DNA of 64,000 nucleotides. It comes from Paraconexibacter algicola. GTDB lineage: Bacteria > Actinomycetota > Thermoleophilia > Solirubrobacterales > Solirubrobacteraceae. The stretch covers positions 248,001 through 312,000 of the forward strand of contig NZ_PYYB01000002.1 in the NCBI RefSeq assembly GCF_003044185.1, in the 5' to 3' direction. The notes below the pieces were generated by a model that saw only the letters and a program-made list of their open reading frames with translations, searched no databases and was not told the DNA's origin. Positions 11,811-44,172 of this stretch are shown here, in pieces (position 1 is the stretch's first letter; the number at the start of each line of letters is the position of its first letter). The translations under genes and the position numbers were made by a program.

Positions 11811-14036
11811 TCAACGAGCGCGTTCGGCGACGGGCGGGCGGCCGTGACCCAGCCGCCGGGCGGCCACCGCGAGCTGCAGCAGCAGCACGTCGGCGGGATC
11901 GCGGAACGACAGGCCCGTGAGTCGGGCGATCGCCGCGAGCCGGTGGTCGACCGAGTTGGCGTGGAGGTGCAGGTCCTCGGCGGTCCGTCGCCGGCGGAGG
12001 TCCAGCTCCACGTGCCGCTGGAGCGTCTGCACGAGGTCCACGCCCCGGGAGGCGTCGTGGTCCTCCAGCGGCCCGAGCACGCTGCGCTGGAGCGCCTCGG
12101 CGAGGTCCGGCCGGGCCAGCAGCAGCAGCTCGAGGAGACCGTCGACCGGGTCGAGGATGCCGCGCCGTCCAGCCGCGAGGGCGACGTCGGTGAGCGACAC
12201 CAGCGGCTGCACCTGCGCCGCCAGCTCGGGGACGCCGGTGAGCTCCCCGATCGCGGCCACCCCACGCAGGCCGGCGAGCCCCTGGAGCGTCGGCTCGGCT
12301 CCCTGCTCCTCCCCGCCCAGGCCCAGGACCACCGCTCCGCGGGCGATCGCGACCCGCCCCTCGCCGCGGAGGTCCATCGCGACGGACCGGGCGAGGGAGG
12401 GCGTGACGGCGCGGTACACCGCCGGCCGCACGAGACTCCCGCGCGCGAAGCCGGCCGCCGCCGCGAGGCCCTCCACGATCCAGGGCGACGGCTCCCCGAC
12501 CAGGAGCGCCTCACCGAGCGCCTCGCGCGGCGCCTGCGCGATCGTCTCGCCGTCACCGACCCGCCGCGCGAGCGCGGCCAGCGGGACGAGCGCGGTGCAC
12601 CGGTCCGCCGGCCAGGAGGCGCGAACCGCGCCGGCCGCCGCCCAGCCGTCCTCCAGCTCGGCGCCGACCGCGCGCAGCAGCGCCCCGCCCGACGCGCTCG
12701 CGCCCGCGCGTGCCAGCGCGTCGGCGAGCAGGTCGGCCGCGACCGAAGCCCGGGCGCCGCGGCGCGCGGCGGCCAGCGCCTCCACCCCCTCGCCGAGCGA
12801 CACGGGACCGCGGTCGCCGCGCTCCGCGACGGGGCGGCCCGCGGGAACGGTCGGCGGCTCGGGCAGCCGCTCCGACCGCACGGCCAGCAGCAGGGCCGTC
12901 CGGCCGCGCCAGGTCCGCAGGTCGACCCCGAGGGTCGCCCCGAGCCGTCCCAGCCGGTAGCGCACGGTCTCCCGGTGCAGTCCGAGCGTCTGCGCCGTCG
13001 CCCGGACGTCGCAGCCCTCACGCAGATACACGCGGGCGGTCGCGAGGTCCGCCTCGGGCGCGCCCCCGGCGAGCACCCGCCGCACGCGCGCCCGGATCGC
13101 CCGATGGACCTGCGGACAGGAGAGCAGCAGCCGCTCGGCGACGTGGTCGCGCTCGTCGAACACGAAGGACGGGTCGGTCGGATCCGCGCGGCGCAGGACC
13201 TCGCGCAGGCGCGCGGCGCGGGCCGGGACCGCATCCGGATGGCTCGTCGTCTCCGCCGCGAGCAGGACCCCCGGCCCCGGGGACGGCAGGCCGGCGGCCG
13301 GGACCCGCGCGACCACGTGGTCGGCCAGCAGCGTCGCCTCGACCCCGGCCGAGCGCAGCTCGGCGGCCAGCGCCGCGTGCTCGCGCACCCCTCCCCCGGG
13401 CCGCAGCGCCACCGCGAGCCGCGCGGATCGCGGATCCGCCGCCGGTGCGGCCACCGGCACGGCGGCGGCCAGCAGCTGCTCCCGGGACCGGCGCTCCTGC
13501 GTCCCGGTCCCCACCGCGGGATCCGCCAGCCGGTCGAGCACCGCGGCGACGATGCCCGGGACGGCGCCCAGCGGTCCGGCCGCGGCGTTGAGCGCGGGAA
13601 GCTCGTCGATCCGGGCGGCCGCGACGAGGCGCTCCCAGACGGCGGCGGCCTGCAGGGCGGGGATCGCCGCGACGACGTCGGCGGGGAGGCCCAGCAGCGC
13701 GACGAGGTCGACCGCCGCCTCCGCCGGCACGTCGGTGTCCCCGGGCGCCAGGCGGCGCTGCTCGACCAGCAGGTCGACCACCAGGACGCGCACGGCCCGC
13801 GCCAGCGCCGGGACACCGGCCGTGAGCGTCGCGGTCGGGAGCGGGGCCGCAGCGGGCAGGGCGGCGCGGATCCGGTCGATCGCGCCGCGATCCACGTCGT
13901 CCCAGCGCACCTCGGACGCCAGCCGGCCCACGAGCTCGCCGCGGTCGACGGTCGGCTCGACCGCCTCCGCCCCGCCCTCCGGCAGCGTCACAACGAACCG
14001 CCCGCCGGGGAGTGACGTCGCCGCAAGCTCCGGCAC
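11811..14036 (-). CDS. Double PucR/CdaR-type transcriptional regulator with two HTH domains
   Basis: About 741 residues from the GTG at 14036; the frame is open further upstream but would run into the divergent gene, so this start is the most plausible. Two PucR-like modules follow each other. The first (about 1-400) ends in EGCDVRATAQTLGLHRETVR (about 335-365), a PucR C-terminal helix-turn-helix. The second (about 410-741) has the GGDEF-like CdaR segment and ends in RTAEDLHLHANSVDHRLAAI (about 690-735), a second HTH of the same type. Ordinary PucR proteins have one HTH. It is probably a cytoplasmic regulator with intramolecular pairing of HTHs. A U-tract terminator follows. Ligand and targets are unknown; the divergent PucR-kinase operon is a likely target. 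Confidence 0.72.
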   Translation of the reverse strand: MPELAATSLPGGRFVVTLPEGGAEAVEPTVDRGELVGRLASEVRWDDVDRGAIDRIRAALPAAAPLPTATLTAGVPALARAVRVLVVDLLVEQRRLAPGDTDVPAEAAVDLVALLGLPADVVAAIPALQAAAVWERLVAAARIDELPALNAAAGPLGAVPGIVAAVLDRLADPAVGTGTQERRSREQLLAAAVPVAAPAADPRSARLAVALRPGGGVREHAALAAELRSAGVEATLLADHVVARVPAAGLPSPGPGVLLAAETTSHPDAVPARAARLREVLRRADPTDPSFVFDERDHVAERLLLSCPQVHRAIRARVRRVLAGGAPEADLATARVYLREGCDVRATAQTLGLHRETVRYRLGRLGATLGVDLRTWRGRTALLLAVRSERLPEPPTVPAGRPVAERGDRGPVSLGEGVEALAAARRGARASVAADLLADALARAGASASGGALLRAVGAELEDGWAAAGAVRASWPADRCTALVPLAALARRVGDGETIAQAPREALGEALLVGEPSPWIVEGLAAAAGFARGSLVRPAVYRAVTPSLARSVAMDLRGEGRVAIARGAVVLGLGGEEQGAEPTLQGLAGLRGVAAIGELTGVPELAAQVQPLVSLTDVALAAGRRGILDPVDGLLELLLLARPDLAEALQRSVLGPLEDHDASRGVDLVQTLQRHVELDLRRRRTAEDLHLHANSVDHRLAAIARLTGLSFRDPADVLLLQLAVAARRLGHGRPPVAERAR

Positions 14037-14337
14037 GCCGCCGCGCCTATACTCGCTCCGCCGCACGGCGCCCTCACCCGCTCGCGCCCGTCCTGCACCG
14101 GCCCTCCGCGGCCCCGCCGTGCGCCCGTCCCATGCCGTCCCGCGCGCCCACAGACACCCGCTCCGCCGGCTGCGAGGACGCCCAGCGGCGCGGATCGGGA
14201 CGGTGGCGAGGACGGCGCGGCACGGTGCCCCGGGAGCCTGGCGTCCCGCCGGGTGCCCCGGGCTGGCCCGCGGACCAACGCCGGCCGGACCCGTTGTGCA
14301 GCGGACCAACGGCGGCCTGCCCGCCACGGGGCGGGCG

Positions 14338-15576
14338 ATGAGCGAGCTCTCCCCGGACGCCCGAGCGGCGATCCGCGATGCCGCACGGGCGATGGCGAGC
14401 CGGCTGGACGAGATCCACGGCGCGGTCGTCGCCGCCACGCTCGAGCGGGTCCCCGTGGACGCGGACGGCTCCCACCTCGTGACCAGCCTCAGCGACATGG
14501 TCACCGCCAACCTCATGGCGTTCATCGCCACCGTCGGCGGCCGCCTGGAGGTCACCGCGCACGAGCCGCTGCCGGAGGAGCGCAAGTGGGCGGCGAACCT
14601 CGCCCGTGCCGGCCGCGAGCCGTCCGACCTGCTCGCCGCGCACCGGACGATCCAGGCCGAGCTCGAGGCGCAGTGGCGCCGCGGTCTGCGGGACCAGGCG
14701 TCCGACCTCGAGACGTTCGCGGACGCGGACGCGGCGACCGCGCAGGTGCTCTTCCAGATGGTCGACCGCGTCCTGCCCGAGCTGATGGCCCACCACGCCG
14801 CCACCTCGGCCTCCGACCCGCCGGTGATCGCCCTGCGGCGGGGCTCGACGATCCGCAGCCTCCTCGCGGGCCACGACGTGGACGTCGCCGAGGCGAGCGC
14901 ACGACTGCACTACGAGCTGGACCGCTGGCACGTCGCGCTCGCCGCACGGGTCACGGACGACGCCACCGCGGAGGAGCAGCTCGAGCGGGTGGTGGGCGCC
15001 GTGCGGGCAGCCACCGGCCGACGGCCGCTCGCGACCCGGGCGGGCTCCGACGTCATCCACGTCTGGGCGGGCTTCGACGGCGAGCCCGAGCGGGTCGCGA
15101 TCCCGCCGGTCGCCGGCGCGGTCGTGGCGCTCGGCCGAGCGGCGCGGGGGCTCGACGGCTTCCGTCGCAGCCGGCACGAGGCCGTCCGGGCGCTCGATCT
15201 CGCGATCGACCTCGGTCGCGCGCCCGGGACCGTGACGGACTACGCGGAGGTCGAGGTGCTGTCGCTGCTGTACGCGGACCGGCCCCAGGCGCGGCGGTTC
15301 GTCGACGAGGTGCTCGGCCCACTGATCGAGGCCGACGCGACCGGCGCGCTCGTGACCACGATGGAGGTGCTCTACGACGAGCACCTCAACTCGGCGCGCG
15401 CCGCCGAGCGCCTCGGCGTCCACCGCAACACCATCACCTACCGTCTGCGGAAGGTGCTCGAGCTGACCGGCGCGTCCCACCCCCTGACGCTGCGCCTGCG
15501 GGTGGCGGTCGCGCTCGCGCCCGCGGTCCTTTCCGGCGTCCCCTCCCCCCTCCGTCGCGGGAGCACCGACCGATGA
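14338..15576 (+). CDS. PucR-family transcriptional regulator
   Basis: 412 residues from the ATG at 14338, preceded by a GGGG-rich site. The N-terminal helical part (about 1-140) resembles the RsbT co-antagonist/sensor-like region found in many PucR proteins (LAAHRTIQAELEAQWRRGL). A CdaR GGDEF-like middle follows (ALGRAARGLDGFRRSRHEAV), then the C-terminal HTH (LNSARAAERLGVHRNTITYR). Its stop overlaps the histidine kinase start as ATGA, an unusual partner for PucR. The 301-bp intergenic region to the double PucR gene carries TATACT near 14047 and no other recognisable gene. Confidence 0.85.
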   Translation: MSELSPDARAAIRDAARAMASRLDEIHGAVVAATLERVPVDADGSHLVTSLSDMVTANLMAFIATVGGRLEVTAHEPLPEERKWAANLARAGREPSDLLAAHRTIQAELEAQWRRGLRDQASDLETFADADAATAQVLFQMVDRVLPELMAHHAATSASDPPVIALRRGSTIRSLLAGHDVDVAEASARLHYELDRWHVALAARVTDDATAEEQLERVVGAVRAATGRRPLATRAGSDVIHVWAGFDGEPERVAIPPVAGAVVALGRAARGLDGFRRSRHEAVRALDLAIDLGRAPGTVTDYAEVEVLSLLYADRPQARRFVDEVLGPLIEADATGALVTTMEVLYDEHLNSARAAERLGVHRNTITYRLRKVLELTGASHPLTLRLRVAVALAPAVLSGVPSPLRRGSTDR

Positions 15577-16841
15577 GCCGGTCGGGACGCCCGCAGGACC
15601 TGCGGTGGGCCGCGCGACGGCTCCTGCGCGACGTGTCGCGGGCGGTCCGGCGGCCGCCGGCGCCCACGGGACCGGCGCGCGCCCCGATGGGCGACCCGGT
15701 GCTGGCCGCGCTGCGGGTCCGGACGATCCTGACCGGCGCGCCGGTCTTCCTGGCCCTCTTCCTGCTCTTCCTCGTGACGTCGCCGACGCCGGTGCGCGTC
15801 CTGCCCGCGCTCCTGATCGCGGGCACGATCATCCTCGGCCCGCTCGCGATCGGCGTGCAGCACGTCCGCCACGGCCCGTACCCGCGCAACCGGGCCTACC
15901 AGTCCGCCGCGGTCGGCTTCACGGTCGCGGCCGGCGCCGCGATCGCCGCGCTGGGCCCCGGGCCGTCGACCGCGTTCTCGGTGACGATGTCCTTCGGGGT
16001 GATCACCCTCATCGTGCTCGCCCTCGACGGCCGCTGGCTCGCCGGCGCCGCCCTCGGCCACGCCGCGGCGTGGCTCGGGACCGGCTGGCTGCTCAACGAC
16101 CCGGGGACGGACGCGCTGCTGACCGGCGCCGTCGTGCAGGGCGGCGCGCTCACGGTGCTGCTGCTCGCCGGGCGGATCTTCTCCGATCACGTCCTCGTCG
16201 CCGCGACGGCCAACGAGGCGGCGCGGCGCGCGCAGGCCGAGGCCGAGCTCGCCCGGGTCCAGGAGCGGCAGCGGCTCTCCGAGGCGCTGCACGACCACGC
16301 GCTGCAGCTCGTGGTCACCGCGCTGCAGGACCTCGCGGAGGCCGAGACCGACGACCCCGCGGTCCTCGAGGCCCACCAGCGGATCGACGACGCCGTCCGT
16401 GCGCTGCGCGGCCTGAGCGTGACGATGAACGAGGGGCTGCTCGCGGAGCTCGCGCCGCGGGTCGCGCTCGAGTACGTGGTCGCCGAGGCCCGCGGCGACG
16501 GACGTCTGGAGATCGACCTCGACGTCGAGCCCGACGTGCACCGTCGGCACACGGTGCTCCTCGTCGAGTCGGCCCGGGAGCTCCTGGCGAACGTCCGGCG
16601 CCACGCCAACGCGAGCCGGGCGACGGTGCGCGTGGCGCTGCGCGACGGCGAACTGGAGCTGGCCGTCGAGGACGACGGGGTGGGCTTCGACGAGGCGGCG
16701 GTCGCCGCGGCCGGCGACGCCGGGCACGTCGGGATCTGGCGCCTGCGGCGCCACGCCCGGGTCCTCGGCGGGGCCTTCACGTTGTCCCGCCGCCCCGGTG
16801 GCGGGACGCGCGCCGCGCTGCGCGTCCGCGACCGCCGCTGA
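15573..16841 (+). CDS. NarL-type sensor histidine kinase without adjacent response regulator
   Basis: 422 residues. Five or six hydrophobic helices (about 45-210) form a membrane sensor without a large extracytoplasmic loop. The dimerisation/H-box SEALHDHALQLVVTAL (HisKA_3 type, His near residue 248) and an HATPase domain follow: N box ELLANVRRHANA, G1 DDGVGFD, G2 GHVGIWRLRRHARVLGG. All catalytic boxes are intact. Translation is coupled to the upstream PucR regulator. No response regulator gene lies within the window, so it either phosphorylates a distant NarL-type regulator or works with PucR in an undescribed way. A 297-bp gap follows, holding only a terminator. Confidence 0.87.
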   Translation: MSRSGRPQDLRWAARRLLRDVSRAVRRPPAPTGPARAPMGDPVLAALRVRTILTGAPVFLALFLLFLVTSPTPVRVLPALLIAGTIILGPLAIGVQHVRHGPYPRNRAYQSAAVGFTVAAGAAIAALGPGPSTAFSVTMSFGVITLIVLALDGRWLAGAALGHAAAWLGTGWLLNDPGTDALLTGAVVQGGALTVLLLAGRIFSDHVLVAATANEAARRAQAEAELARVQERQRLSEALHDHALQLVVTALQDLAEAETDDPAVLEAHQRIDDAVRALRGLSVTMNEGLLAELAPRVALEYVVAEARGDGRLEIDLDVEPDVHRRHTVLLVESARELLANVRRHANASRATVRVALRDGELELAVEDDGVGFDEAAVAAAGDAGHVGIWRLRRHARVLGGAFTLSRRPGGGTRAALRVRDRR

Positions 16842-17138: not shown

Positions 17139-20100
17139 TCAGGGGAAGTCCACCCCGCGGATGAGGGTGTACGTCGGGTAGGTCTTCGGGTTGCTGCGCG
17201 TCTTGCGCACCCGGGTCTCCAGCCGGTAGATCGCCGAGTCGACGCGCTCCGGGGCGGCGAACGTCACCGTGAACCGGCCGTCCGACGCGGGCTTGATCCG
17301 GGCGACGACCTTCGCCGGCGTCCCGCACTCGGTGCGCTCCCGCACGGTGATCGTGGCGACCGGCGCCGCCAGCGGGCGGCTGACCCGGCCGCTGATGCGG
17401 ATCTCCGAGCCCTGACGCAGGCCGGTGATGTCCATCCGCCGCGCGAGCTTGAGGTTGAGCGACCGCTCGCCCTCGAGCTCCGCCCGGTACCGGGCGCGGT
17501 TGGTCGCCCGGACCCGGGCGCTCGGCAGGCTGACGAACGCCTCGAACGTCCCGTCACGCTGGACGGTCGGCCGCGCGACGATCGCACCGGTCGCCTGGAA
17601 GCGCAGTGCGACCCGCTTCCCGGCCTGCGCGGCCCGCGTGACGCCCTGCAGGCGCACCCGGTTCCCGACCCGGCGCACGTCCACCAGGACGAGCGAGCGC
17701 TCAGCGCAGTCGAGCATCAGCTGCCCGGAGGTCCGCCGCACGCGGTACGTGGACGTCGACGTCGTCGTCTGCCCGAGGACGCTCGTCGTGGTCACCGTGA
17801 TCGTGTGCACGCCGGGCTGGTCGGTCGGCAGCGGGGCACCCGACGCCACCGGGACGGTGGTCCCGTCGGGCTTCGTCACGGCCGCCGTGCAGACCGTCGA
17901 CAGGACGACCCCGGAGCACGTGTAGCTGACCGGGAGGGTCTCGCCGAGTCCGACGACGTGCCCGTCCGCCGGCGCACCGACGACCGGCCGGTTCGGCGCG
18001 GCCACCACGTAGCTCGTGGTCGTCGTCGTGCTCTGGCCGAGCGCGTCGACGCCGGTGACCGTCACCACGTACGTCCCGGGGACGTCCGTCGGGAGCGGCG
18101 CCCCGCTGGCGATCGGAACGACGGTCCCGTCCGGGCGGGTGACCGTCGCCGCGCACGTCACCGGGGCGGCGGCGCCACCGCAGCTGTAGTTCAGCGGACG
18201 GTTGGCGCCCTGCGGCAGCGTCGTGCCGTTGGGCAGGTCCACCGCCGGAGCGGTCGGCGGCGGCGCCAGCGACGCCGTCGCCGTGTCGTTGGCGGACGTC
18301 GGGTCGGCGTCCTGGCCCTCGACGCGGGCGGTGTTGTCGACGCGACCGAGCGTGCCGACGACCCGGCCGGTGACGGCGATGCTCGCCGTCGCACCGGGCG
18401 CGAGCGAGCCGACGAGGCAGCGGACCGTGCGACCGTCGACGGTGCAGCCCTCGGTCGCCGTCGCGACGTCCGTCACCTGCGCCGGGAGCTGGTCGGTCAC
18501 GACCGCCCCGGAGCTCGCGGTCGTCCCGCGGTTGCTGACCGTGATCTCCCAGGCGAGCGTGGAGTCCGCCCCCGTCATCGCGGTCACGCGACCGGTCTTG
18601 GCGATCGCCAGGTCGGTCTCGGCGCCCTCGCAATAGGTGCCGTCGACGTTGCCGTTGACGGCCTCGGTGCGACCGACCGACACGAGCGAGAACGTGGGCG
18701 TGGCGGTGTCCGCCCCGGCGATCCGGATCTGCCGGATCTCGCTGCTGGAGTTGAACACCAGTCCGAGGTCGCCGTTGCCGAACTTCCAGGCCCCACCGGC
18801 GGCCTGGACGAGCCCGCCGGGCACGACGCCCGTGGCGGGGAACGCGTCGACCTGACCGGTGGTCGGGTCGATGCGCATGATCGTGGCCTGGTCGTTGTGC
18901 TTGCCCCAGAGCCGCCCGGCGATCAGCGCGAAGTCGGAGACCTTGGCGGGCGCCGAGAGCTCGACCTCCGTCGCCAGGCGGTTCGCCACGTCGATGCGGT
19001 ACATCGTCGTGCCGTCCAGCGGCTTGACGTAGTACGCCCCGTCGGGTCCGAAGGCGCCGGCCGCGTAGGTGCCCGCGGGCAGGTTGGAGACCGCCCCGAG
19101 GTCCGTCGTCGCGGCGTCCTGGACGCCGAGCTTCAGGAGGTGACCGTTCTCGGCGACCGCGTAGACGAGGCCGTCGGCGGCGTTGTAGCCGATGCCGTTG
19201 TAGGTGACCGAGCCACTCGCGTCGATCGCGGAGGTCCGGTATCCGCCGGTATCGGCGACGACCCGCAGCAGGTCCGCGGGCGAGTTGCCCGAGACGATGA
19301 TCTGCCCGGGGGTGCAGCGCTTGGGCCCGGAGCCGTCGTTGCACGCGGGGACGCCCGGGGTGCTCGCCGGCGAGGCGTTGCCCGCCGCGTCCGTCTGGGT
19401 GGCGGAGACGGTCGTCCCGCAGGCGAACGGTCCCTCGACCTGCCAGGTGCCGTCGTCCTGGACCGGGGTCGTGGCGATCGGGCTCGCGTCCTGGTCGAGC
19501 ACCGTGACGGTCGCCCCGGGCTCGCCCTCACCGGAGAGCGTGCCGACCTGGTCGATCGCGATCACGGTCGGGGGGTTCGGCGGGCTGGTGTCGGGACCGA
19601 CCTGGAACGGCGCCGAGTACTGCGACGAGCGTCCGGCGGCGTCCTGCGTCTGCACGCGGAAGTTGCCTCCGGTCTTCGTCGTCGGCAGCGTCACGGTCGT
19701 GGTGGCGCTGACGTCGTCGATCCGACCGACGTACTCCTCGGCGTTGTCGTCGGCCGTCCAGAAGACGTCGACGTCGACGGGCGTGGTCGGTGCGGTGTTG
19801 GCGCCCAGCGGCGGCGTCACCGGCGCGACCGTCAGCTGCACGGACACGCCCGGGTCGAGGACCGCGGCGGTCGGACGCCAGGTCTGGATGCGGCTGTTGG
19901 CGCGGCCGCCGTAGTTCGTGACGAACCAGCCGGACTGCGCCTCGCTCTGGATCGGCGAGGTCGTGCCGCGGGTGTTCTGGTCGAACGTGTTGCGCTCCAT
20001 GCGCGTGCGGCCGTTGCCCAGGGCGACGATCGGCCCCGACGCGGCGGCCTTGTAGCCCTGGACGCTGTTGCCCGTGAAGGACCAGCCGGTGTCGGCGCTC

Positions 20101-21482
20101 TCGGCGACGTTGGCCTGGCTGTAGATCGCCCAGCGGTTCTGGAAGACGCCGTCGTCCTGGCGGAAGACGTTGTTGCGCACGACGTTGTTGGTGCCGGGCT
20201 GCCGGATCCAGACGGTCGTCAGGCCGTCGCCGCGCTGGTTGATGAAGTCGTTGTCCTCGATCACCGCGTCGGTGTACGTCGCGTCGACGAAGTCGAGCAC
20301 GTGCTGGAAGACGTCCTCGAAGCGGTTGCCGCGCAGGACGAGGCCGTCGTGCTCGCTGCCGCCGTGGTCGACGAACGCCCAGCGGGTGCCGTCGAAGGTG
20401 GAGTCCTCGACCCGCAGGTTGGTGGTGTCGCTGTTGGGGTAGGCGAAGATCGCGAACGCGTTGTCGGCGACGAAGCGCGAGTTCGTGATCGCGAGGTCGG
20501 TGGTCGAGCTGCCGCTCTGCAGGCCGACGGCGTACCCGGCCGGGCTGTCGAAGTCGGAGTCCTCGACGGTGAAGCCGTCGATCTTCGCGTCGAGCTCCAC
20601 CCAGAGGTCACCGAACTGCTCGGTGCCCTTGCTGTCCAGGCGCGTGATCGCGACGTTCGAGACGGGGTCGTCGCCGGCCTGGGCGCGATCGACGAAGATC
20701 GGGAAGCGGAAGACGCTCACCGCGTCGAGGTCGGTGATCGTGACGCCGGACGCCTCCGCGAGGATGCCGACGCAGACCTCGAGGATGGGGGTCGTCGGAT
20801 CGGCGCAGGTGCCGTTGGCGATCGTCGTGTTCTGCGTGCCCTTGTCGACGACGATGCTCGAGTCGCCGCCGCGGAGGTTCTGGAAGTTGCGGATCGTCAC
20901 CCCGTCGCTGCTGACGAGGAAGATCCCGTTCGGGGCGTCGTCGGCGGACTCGATCTTGATGTCGTTCCCGAGGTCGACGGTGACCGGGCGGTTCGCGTCG
21001 ATCTGGAAGAAGTAGTTGCTGCCGAGGTAGTCGTTGCTGATCCCGTTGTGGGAGACGCCGCCGGCCTTCATCTTCAGGCCGTTGGCGGGCAGGGTCAGCG
21101 TGCCGGAGCCGGCGAAGACGATCGCGATGTCGTCACCGGGGGACGCGGGGAGCGCGTTGGCCTGCTGGACCGCGGCGCGCAGGGTGCACGTCGCGTTCGC
21201 GGTGGCGCAGATCCCGTCGGCCGTGTTGGCGTCCGAGCTGGCGGCGGCGACGCTCGTGTTGACGAGGGAGTCGACGGTGAACGTCGTCGTCGCGGCGTGG
21301 GCGGCCTGGGGCAGCGCGAGCAGCGCGAGGACGGTGAGGACCGCTCCCCGGACGCGGGCACGCCGCCGCCGCGGACGTTCGGGCGGGGGCGGCGCGACGG
21401 CGACCCGAGGGGGCGCACCGGGACACGCGGATGGTGTCTCCTTGCAGGGAGGACGTTCGATGCTGACTCGCGTTCTAGGCAC
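17139..21482 (-). CDS. Large secreted beta-helix/Ig-like/DUF11 protein
   Basis: 1447 residues from the GTG at 21482. A long basic leader precedes the signal peptide RGAVLTVLALLALPQAAHA (cleavage near residue 62). Modules in order: a right-handed beta-helix (about 65-520, many NxF/VxDS rungs), a fibronectin-like segment (540-640), a bacterial Ig domain (VTVLDQDASPIATTPVQDDG), a beta-propeller-like region (about 730-960), a DUF11 repeat (LAWEITVSNRGTTASSGAVV), two near-identical Ig-like repeats (ASGAPLPTDVPGTYVVTVTG and ASGAPLPTDQPGVHTITVTT) and a basic C-terminal beta domain. It is probably exported and adhesive or carbohydrate-interacting; no catalytic site is identified. The start is uncertain because the best Shine-Dalgarno site (AAGGAG, 21438-21443) is aligned with a GTG in another frame. 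Confidence 0.8.
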   Translation of the reverse strand: MPRTRVSIERPPCKETPSACPGAPPRVAVAPPPPERPRRRRARVRGAVLTVLALLALPQAAHAATTTFTVDSLVNTSVAAASSDANTADGICATANATCTLRAAVQQANALPASPGDDIAIVFAGSGTLTLPANGLKMKAGGVSHNGISNDYLGSNYFFQIDANRPVTVDLGNDIKIESADDAPNGIFLVSSDGVTIRNFQNLRGGDSSIVVDKGTQNTTIANGTCADPTTPILEVCVGILAEASGVTITDLDAVSVFRFPIFVDRAQAGDDPVSNVAITRLDSKGTEQFGDLWVELDAKIDGFTVEDSDFDSPAGYAVGLQSGSSTTDLAITNSRFVADNAFAIFAYPNSDTTNLRVEDSTFDGTRWAFVDHGGSEHDGLVLRGNRFEDVFQHVLDFVDATYTDAVIEDNDFINQRGDGLTTVWIRQPGTNNVVRNNVFRQDDGVFQNRWAIYSQANVAESADTGWSFTGNSVQGYKAAASGPIVALGNGRTRMERNTFDQNTRGTTSPIQSEAQSGWFVTNYGGRANSRIQTWRPTAAVLDPGVSVQLTVAPVTPPLGANTAPTTPVDVDVFWTADDNAEEYVGRIDDVSATTTVTLPTTKTGGNFRVQTQDAAGRSSQYSAPFQVGPDTSPPNPPTVIAIDQVGTLSGEGEPGATVTVLDQDASPIATTPVQDDGTWQVEGPFACGTTVSATQTDAAGNASPASTPGVPACNDGSGPKRCTPGQIIVSGNSPADLLRVVADTGGYRTSAIDASGSVTYNGIGYNAADGLVYAVAENGHLLKLGVQDAATTDLGAVSNLPAGTYAAGAFGPDGAYYVKPLDGTTMYRIDVANRLATEVELSAPAKVSDFALIAGRLWGKHNDQATIMRIDPTTGQVDAFPATGVVPGGLVQAAGGAWKFGNGDLGLVFNSSSEIRQIRIAGADTATPTFSLVSVGRTEAVNGNVDGTYCEGAETDLAIAKTGRVTAMTGADSTLAWEITVSNRGTTASSGAVVTDQLPAQVTDVATATEGCTVDGRTVRCLVGSLAPGATASIAVTGRVVGTLGRVDNTARVEGQDADPTSANDTATASLAPPPTAPAVDLPNGTTLPQGANRPLNYSCGGAAAPVTCAATVTRPDGTVVPIASGAPLPTDVPGTYVVTVTGVDALGQSTTTTTSYVVAAPNRPVVGAPADGHVVGLGETLPVSYTCSGVVLSTVCTAAVTKPDGTTVPVASGAPLPTDQPGVHTITVTTTSVLGQTTTSTSTYRVRRTSGQLMLDCAERSLVLVDVRRVGNRVRLQGVTRAAQAGKRVALRFQATGAIVARPTVQRDGTFEAFVSLPSARVRATNRARYRAELEGERSLNLKLARRMDITGLRQGSEIRISGRVSRPLAAPVATITVRERTECGTPAKVVARIKPASDGRFTVTFAAPERVDSAIYRLETRVRKTRSNPKTYPTYTLIRGVDFP

Positions 21483-43488: not shown

Positions 43489-44172
43489 TCAGAGGTCGCG
43501 GACGGCGATGACGCCGCGCTGCAGCGCCTCGGCCACGAGCCGGGAGCGCTTCTGGTTCTGCGGCAGGTGCTCGATCCCGAACCGCTGGAACAGGCCGCGC
43601 AGGTGCGCCTTGACCGCGTCGACGCTGAGGTGCAGCGCGTCGGCGATCTCCTGGTTGGTGGCCGGGACGGCGAACTCGTCGTGCTTGTACGGGCGCGCGA
43701 GCGCGAGCAGGACCTGGCGCTGGGTCGCCGACAGCTCGGCGGGCGCCGCGCCGTCGCTGGCGACCTGGGTCGGCCGGGACTCCTCCAGCTCCGGCCGCCG
43801 GTAGGCCAGCAGCGTGCGGCCGACCCGCACGACGTCGCCGTCGCGCAGCCGGTACCGGCCGCTGATCCGCTGCTGGTTGACGTAGGTGCCGTTGCGCGAG
43901 AGGCCGTCGTCGCTGATCGTCCACTCGCCGGCGATCAGCTCGAGCTCGGCGTGCAGGCGGCTGACCTCGTCGTCCCAGCCCAGCGCGACGTCGCAGGTCG
44001 TGCCGCGGCCGAGGCTGAGCCGCTCCCGCGCGCCGTCGAGCTCGACGAGCGTCTGCGCGCCCTCGCCGTCGCGCAGCACGAGGAACGGGCGCCCGAGCCG
44101 CTCCGCATCGATCCGCGCGCGGAGCTCGGCCGGCGAGGCGGCGTGCGCGGCGAGCGGCGAGCGATCGGACAT
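43489..44172 (-). CDS. FHA domain-HTH DNA-binding protein
   Basis: 227 residues. An FHA domain (about 30-125) has the phosphothreonine-binding residues in SLGRGTTCDVAL, SRLHAEL and LSRNGTYVN. A C-terminal winged HTH (about 145-215; EIADALHLSVDAVKAHLRGL) resembles LuxR/sigma region 4. It would bind DNA in response to phosphothreonine on a partner. It converges on the kinase and is divergent from an ECF sigma gene, with three palindromes in the shared 154-bp gap. The kinase-FHA-sigma order suggests one signalling module, which is inference. Confidence 0.87.
   Translation of the reverse strand: MSDRSPLAAHAASPAELRARIDAERLGRPFLVLRDGEGAQTLVELDGARERLSLGRGTTCDVALGWDDEVSRLHAELELIAGEWTISDDGLSRNGTYVNQQRISGRYRLRDGDVVRVGRTLLAYRRPELEESRPTQVASDGAAPAELSATQRQVLLALARPYKHDEFAVPATNQEIADALHLSVDAVKAHLRGLFQRFGIEHLPQNQKRSRLVAEALQRGVIAVRDL

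Follow-up and report, generated by a model that had tools for sequence, protein, structure and literature searches.

A PucR-type regulator gene that overlaps the gene of an orphan sensor histidine kinase in Paraconexibacter algicola

Introduction

The PucR family of transcriptional regulators has its own Pfam entry, PF07905, and about half of its members carry a GGDEF-like domain, according to the portion of PMC7652997 available to us. The same portion describes local action for GabR, and inverted repeats as the operators of GabR and AdeR. In actinobacteria, the closest described regulators are of the PucR/CdaR type (the Rv1453 family, MabR/Rv2242, GabR), which combine a GGDEF-like domain with a C-terminal HTH_30 domain and whose operon partner is a catabolic gene. 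The N-terminal domain of MabR is a nonheme globin, as stated in the accessible part of PMC11617747. On the kinase side, the nearest systems are the NarX/NarQ-type (HisKA_3) sensors, with an H box containing DxxxQ and with N and G boxes. NarX depends on DxxxQ for its phosphatase activity, and the motif shows high conservation across HisKA_3 kinases, as far as the available section of PMC3510030 goes. In clostridia, orphan kinases are reported to converge on a single regulator, Spo0A.

Here, we analyze a locus in which a PucR-type regulator gene has a histidine kinase gene, rather than a catabolic gene, as its partner. The window is the whole 64,000-nucleotide stretch, positions 248,001 to 312,000 of its contig. 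We think it probable that the regulator is locally controlled and co-expressed with an orphan kinase, which would signal to a regulator encoded elsewhere.

Results and Discussion

The regulator gene runs from ATG 14338 to TGA 15576 (+ strand, 412 aa), and the kinase gene from ATG 15573 to TGA 16841 (+ strand, 422 aa). Both assignments are backed by profile matches, together with a 44-member alignment for the regulator and a low-confidence structural model for the kinase. Start and stop codons overlap in ATGA (15573–15576, +), which can be read directly in the sequence and bears out the first-pass annotation, and GGGAG lies about nine bases 5′ of the kinase ATG. The overlap depends on the earlier of the possible kinase starts; our simple gene caller, a script based on codon-position G+C, preferred an in-frame ATG downstream, at 15687. 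Downstream of the kinase, the same caller places a large convergent gene on the other strand (17139–21482), and the unit therefore comprises two genes, which are probably co-transcribed. A scan of the locus for sigma-70 promoters and terminators returned nothing, such a scan being uninformative at the G+C content found here.

Two domains of the regulator score above their Pfam cut-offs: GGDEF_2, the PucR-type GGDEF-like domain (residues 179–288; 14872–15201, +; 44.2 bits against a cut-off of 24.5, E 2.6e-11), and HTH_30, the C-terminal DNA-binding domain (residues 338–380; 15349–15477, +; 45 bits against 27, E 9e-12). They are preceded by an N-terminal part of about residues 1–160. The Pfam search detected no receiver domain in the protein, as had been noted earlier. 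Both domains are common to all 44 aligned members, and the window PucR thus has the standard, receiver-free build. PF07905 was not among its Pfam matches at E ≤ 1, nor among 25 of the 34 Pfam families listed for 44 PucR relatives; the protein thus belongs to the family by virtue of its HTH and GGDEF-like domains, not of PF07905. Like the actinobacterial regulators described above, it pairs a GGDEF-like domain with HTH_30. The Rv1453 model (NF050824) aligns over residues 3–393, at 98.1 bits, far below the equivalog cut-off of 600 bits. A profile of the window PucR matched the C-terminal structure of MabR/Rv2242 (9f80). It reached that chain only and gave no match to the globin-like N-domain of MabR. 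The N-terminal part may be similar to that nonheme globin domain, although neither the profile nor a single-sequence fold prediction, useless at a mean pLDDT of 38, shows such a similarity. Residue 102 is His in the window PucR versus Tyr in 40 of 43 relatives. A plasmid search with the protein gave only relatives of 28–30% identity among the 10 of 30 matches listed.

Upstream of pucR, a 17-bp core, GCGGACCAACGNCGGCC, is found at 14270 and again 31 bp further on, at 14301, a distance of roughly three turns of the helix. It forms part of a direct repeat with copies at 14270–14291 (GCGGACCAACGCCGGCCGGACC, +) and 14301–14322 (GCGGACCAACGGCGGCCTGCCC, +). In the 4.74 Mb genome, the exact core occurs at these two positions only. 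When up to two mismatches are allowed, there are 36 matches (both copies included), fewer than the 49 obtained with a reversed-pattern control, which leaves the exact pair as the one meaningful finding. No comparable repeat was found before other PucR genes (52 PucR upstream stretches). The direct repeat is possibly a private operator; it could also be a simple local duplication. Copy 2 would be coding if translation starts at 14296. An inverted repeat, CCGTTG-N10-CAACGG, was seen by eye in the stretch between 14036 and 14338; it shares this symmetry with the GabR and AdeR operators described in PMC7652997.

On the other side of this stretch lies a divergent gene (11811–14036, −), which encodes a single chain with two HTH_30 domains of the PucR type (1.7e-29, two stretches); its GTG start at 14036 is our choice. 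The domains occupy residues 351–407 and 688–744, and the two halves of the protein are weakly alike. No relative of this gene was found in seven congeners.

The kinase has a HATPase_c domain at residues 330–419 (16560–16829, +; 34.4 bits against a cut-off of 26.4, E 3.3e-8). The core of its H box, HDHALQ, spans residues 240–245 (16290–16307, +), with H240 the presumed phospho-acceptor and D241 and Q245 making up DxxxQ. Read by eye, the kinase shows H240 within LHDHALQ, followed by NVRRHAN, DDGVG and a G2 box; we take the first three to be the H, N and G1 boxes. Pfam HisKA_3 found no match in the kinase at E ≤ 1, nor at the position of the kinase in the genome search. NCBIfam models gave 53.2 bits for NarX (residues 222–415), 46 for MctS and 45 for NarQ, all far under their cut-offs; at 578 bits, the NarX cut-off sets the window kinase apart from the equivalogs. 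The dimerisation domain is a diverged version, since NarX and NarQ models match in the H-box region and HisKA_3 does not, and the protein is a diverged relative of the NarX/NarQ-type class. The first-pass annotation had called it a complete NarL-type kinase: the H, N and G boxes and the HATPase_c domain are indeed present, but the dimerisation domain has diverged beyond a HisKA_3 match. A low-confidence single-sequence model (pLDDT 56), used solely for the membrane-helix count, suggests that about six helices cross the membrane and that the H-box helix is preceded by a long one leading into it. The number of helices and the lack of an adjoining regulator are further differences from NarX and NarQ. 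With DxxxQ kept alongside the H, N and G boxes, a receiver partner is expected.

Is the gene pair conserved? No close relative of it was found in 8 genomes of the genus or 146 of the family, its own genome being counted. In the corresponding survey of the kinase, all candidates were scored in the 8 genus genomes, and the best 11–12 per genome in the 146 family genomes and 151 genomes of the order; no relative exceeded 43% identity over the catalytic part. The closest family relative of the PucR, with 41% identity (G151:C1:789996), lies far from the best kinase match of the same genome (C1:4032412). Among 47 distinct PucR genes for which both neighbours were called, one adjoins a kinase, and it is the window gene. 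Similarly, when the kinases of this H-box form were compared across the order (42 distinct ones), a PucR neighbour was seen at the window kinase alone. At least 21 of the 42 carry a receiver themselves or lie no more than two genes from one, a lower bound because for 25 of them the analysed sequence ends within two genes. The H-box classification behind these counts still places a few sister kinases in a class of other histidine kinases. In a wider scan of GTDB genomes, relatives among the best 80 kept were 23–37% identical to the kinase over its catalytic part. A kinase domain is present in all 80, a receiver lies within 3 kb in 65, and a PucR lies within 3 kb in none; these loci were checked on six-frame ORFs, our simple gene caller having missed the kinases in 45 of the 80. 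A conserved PucR–kinase module is therefore rejected, the pair being unique to the window among the loci examined. The first-pass annotation, which proposed a survey of the pair in other genomes, had named a lack of conservation, together with a co-varying partner regulator elsewhere, as what would speak against its reading; the first of these two is what the counts of 1/47, 1/42 and 0/80 reveal. The papers found on the PucR family together with histidine kinases do not, by their titles, deal with such a pair, an absence that is no proof.

The main competitor to our reading is that the genes are accidental neighbours: a rearrangement would have brought the orphan kinase gene to its place after pucR, and the two would be co-transcribed without a functional link. 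With about 3,900 genes (an estimate), 24 PucR genes and 59 HATPase genes in the genome, about 0.23 same-strand PucR-to-HATPase neighbours are expected by chance (P about 0.21), a slightly generous figure, as the 59 may include non-kinases; for any PucR–HATPase adjacency, the expectation is 0.72. The adjacency is not beyond chance, and such a pair would be met in about one genome in five. Four-base overlaps are common too: among 103 same-strand neighbours in the window and in 13 loci of the same genome, 23 allow one, which is ATGA in 11 cases. These numbers and the non-conservation favour accident; on the other side, the start/stop overlap and the repeat private to this promoter point to a transcription unit that has become established. 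We regard accident as a serious possibility, though clearly the less likely of the two. On balance, we favour a lineage-specific two-gene operon, an ordinary arrangement that does not have the status of a new signalling module.

Two other PucR loci of the genome may be mentioned here. One PucR gene (C3:271024) lies 1.15 kb from a HATPase, beside a complete kinase–regulator pair. At another locus (L227:3691–5903, −), tandem PucR genes share a four-base overlap.

The statement that no response regulator lies in the window holds: the genome has 61 receiver (PF00072) matches over cut-off, none of them within C2:248001–312000. The nearest is 93,562 bases away, on the same contig; the kinase is an orphan. 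A weak LuxR-type (GerE) HTH match of 26.5 bits, at 43558–43662 (−), comes without a receiver.

Where, then, might the partner be encoded? Defined by a receiver plus GerE, NarL-type regulators number 17 in the genome, with a HATPase within 2 kb in 12 and none detected within 3 kb in five. One of these five, C5:158431, adjoins a weak HisKA_3 match, which leaves four. In the underlying table of neighbours, two receiver rows and one HATPase row below cut-off were dropped and one PucR row below cut-off was kept. Kinases of the same H-box form number 11, and eight of them, the window kinase included, have no adjoining receiver. Two sisters (C2:385535 and C1:2574869) each adjoin a receiver gene, and a third (C1:1087759) itself includes a weak match to part of a receiver. 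The window kinase and its sisters share the phospho-acceptor His with DxxxQ; the window kinase is part of a local expansion of kinases mostly lacking a neighbouring regulator. Two kinases of the same H-box form elsewhere in the genome (L073:3896–5503, − and L074:4190–6130, −) have an unusual layout, with the HATPase first and PAS behind it, and GAF as well in one of them.

It is conceivable, but quite unlikely, that the kinase has a dedicated orphan regulator, namely one of the four unpaired NarL-type regulators (C1:1512851, C1:1859676, C1:56684 or C3:217546). Their number is what speaks for this idea. In a tree of 41 regulators of the same order, from which those of the 80 wider loci were left out, all 15 partnered with this kinase form fall outside a 17-row branch, which holds all four of the unpaired ones; the separating branch has modest support (85/90), its bootstrap not having settled. 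The four unpaired regulators cluster with those belonging to other kinase forms, and C3:217546 is 7.5 kb from another kinase. The genome search for an orphan NarL-type regulator, suggested by the first-pass annotation, accordingly yielded no unpaired one of the right branch, and a dedicated orphan regulator is not supported.

As the unpaired NarL-type regulators stand outside the partner branches, convergence on regulators that have a kinase of their own is favoured. Within our overall reading, which we hold with some confidence as a whole, the likeliest partners are those paired with sister kinases, C2:384396 and C1:2573733, and perhaps C1:2565467; that each already adjoins a kinase counts against them. 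The earlier proposal of a distant regulator is plausible, given the conserved boxes, DxxxQ and the receivers near most of the wider relatives; no co-varying partner emerged. The arrangement would recall the one reported for clostridial Spo0A: several sister kinases here likewise lack a neighbouring regulator, and convergence on a shared one would be the corresponding step.

It had also been suggested that the kinase signals, directly or indirectly, to PucR. One version is a receiver-free two-component pair, in which the kinase phosphorylates or binds PucR. The start/stop overlap and the missing local receiver fit this version, which we nonetheless judge improbable: the build of the PucR is standard (all 44 members share its domains), the genes of its relatives do not lie beside kinases, and the kinase keeps DxxxQ, a receiver-phosphatase motif according to the available section of PMC3510030. 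Phosphotransfer from kinase to PucR is unsupported, as is any special link between the two; the pair is absent from all other loci examined. Similarly improbable is that the kinase controls PucR directly, through phosphorylation or tethering to the membrane, such that a one-component regulator replaces the response regulator and the private repeat is its sole target.

Conclusions

We propose that the locus works as follows. The stand-alone (one-component) PucR probably controls its own promoter through the direct repeat at 14270–14322, and perhaps, through the same repeat, the divergent double-HTH gene as well. The kinase, a membrane-bound orphan, would act as both kinase and phosphatase and would belong to a NarX-like subfamily that is expanded in this genome. 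Its autophosphorylation on H240 may be triggered by a cue at the membrane or envelope, and phosphate would then pass back and forth between it and a NarL-type response regulator whose gene lies at another locus, several sister kinases converging on a few such regulators. The effect of PucR on this phosphate path would at most be to set the amount of the kinase.

Where start/stop overlaps are frequent and a regulator–kinase gene pair is seen in one genome, the overlap is a weak sign that the two proteins form a signalling pair. Alone, the pucR–kinase pair matters little, its one small point of interest being the private repeat. If many kinases do signal to few regulators here, this genome would be well suited to the study of cross-signalling among paralogous kinases.
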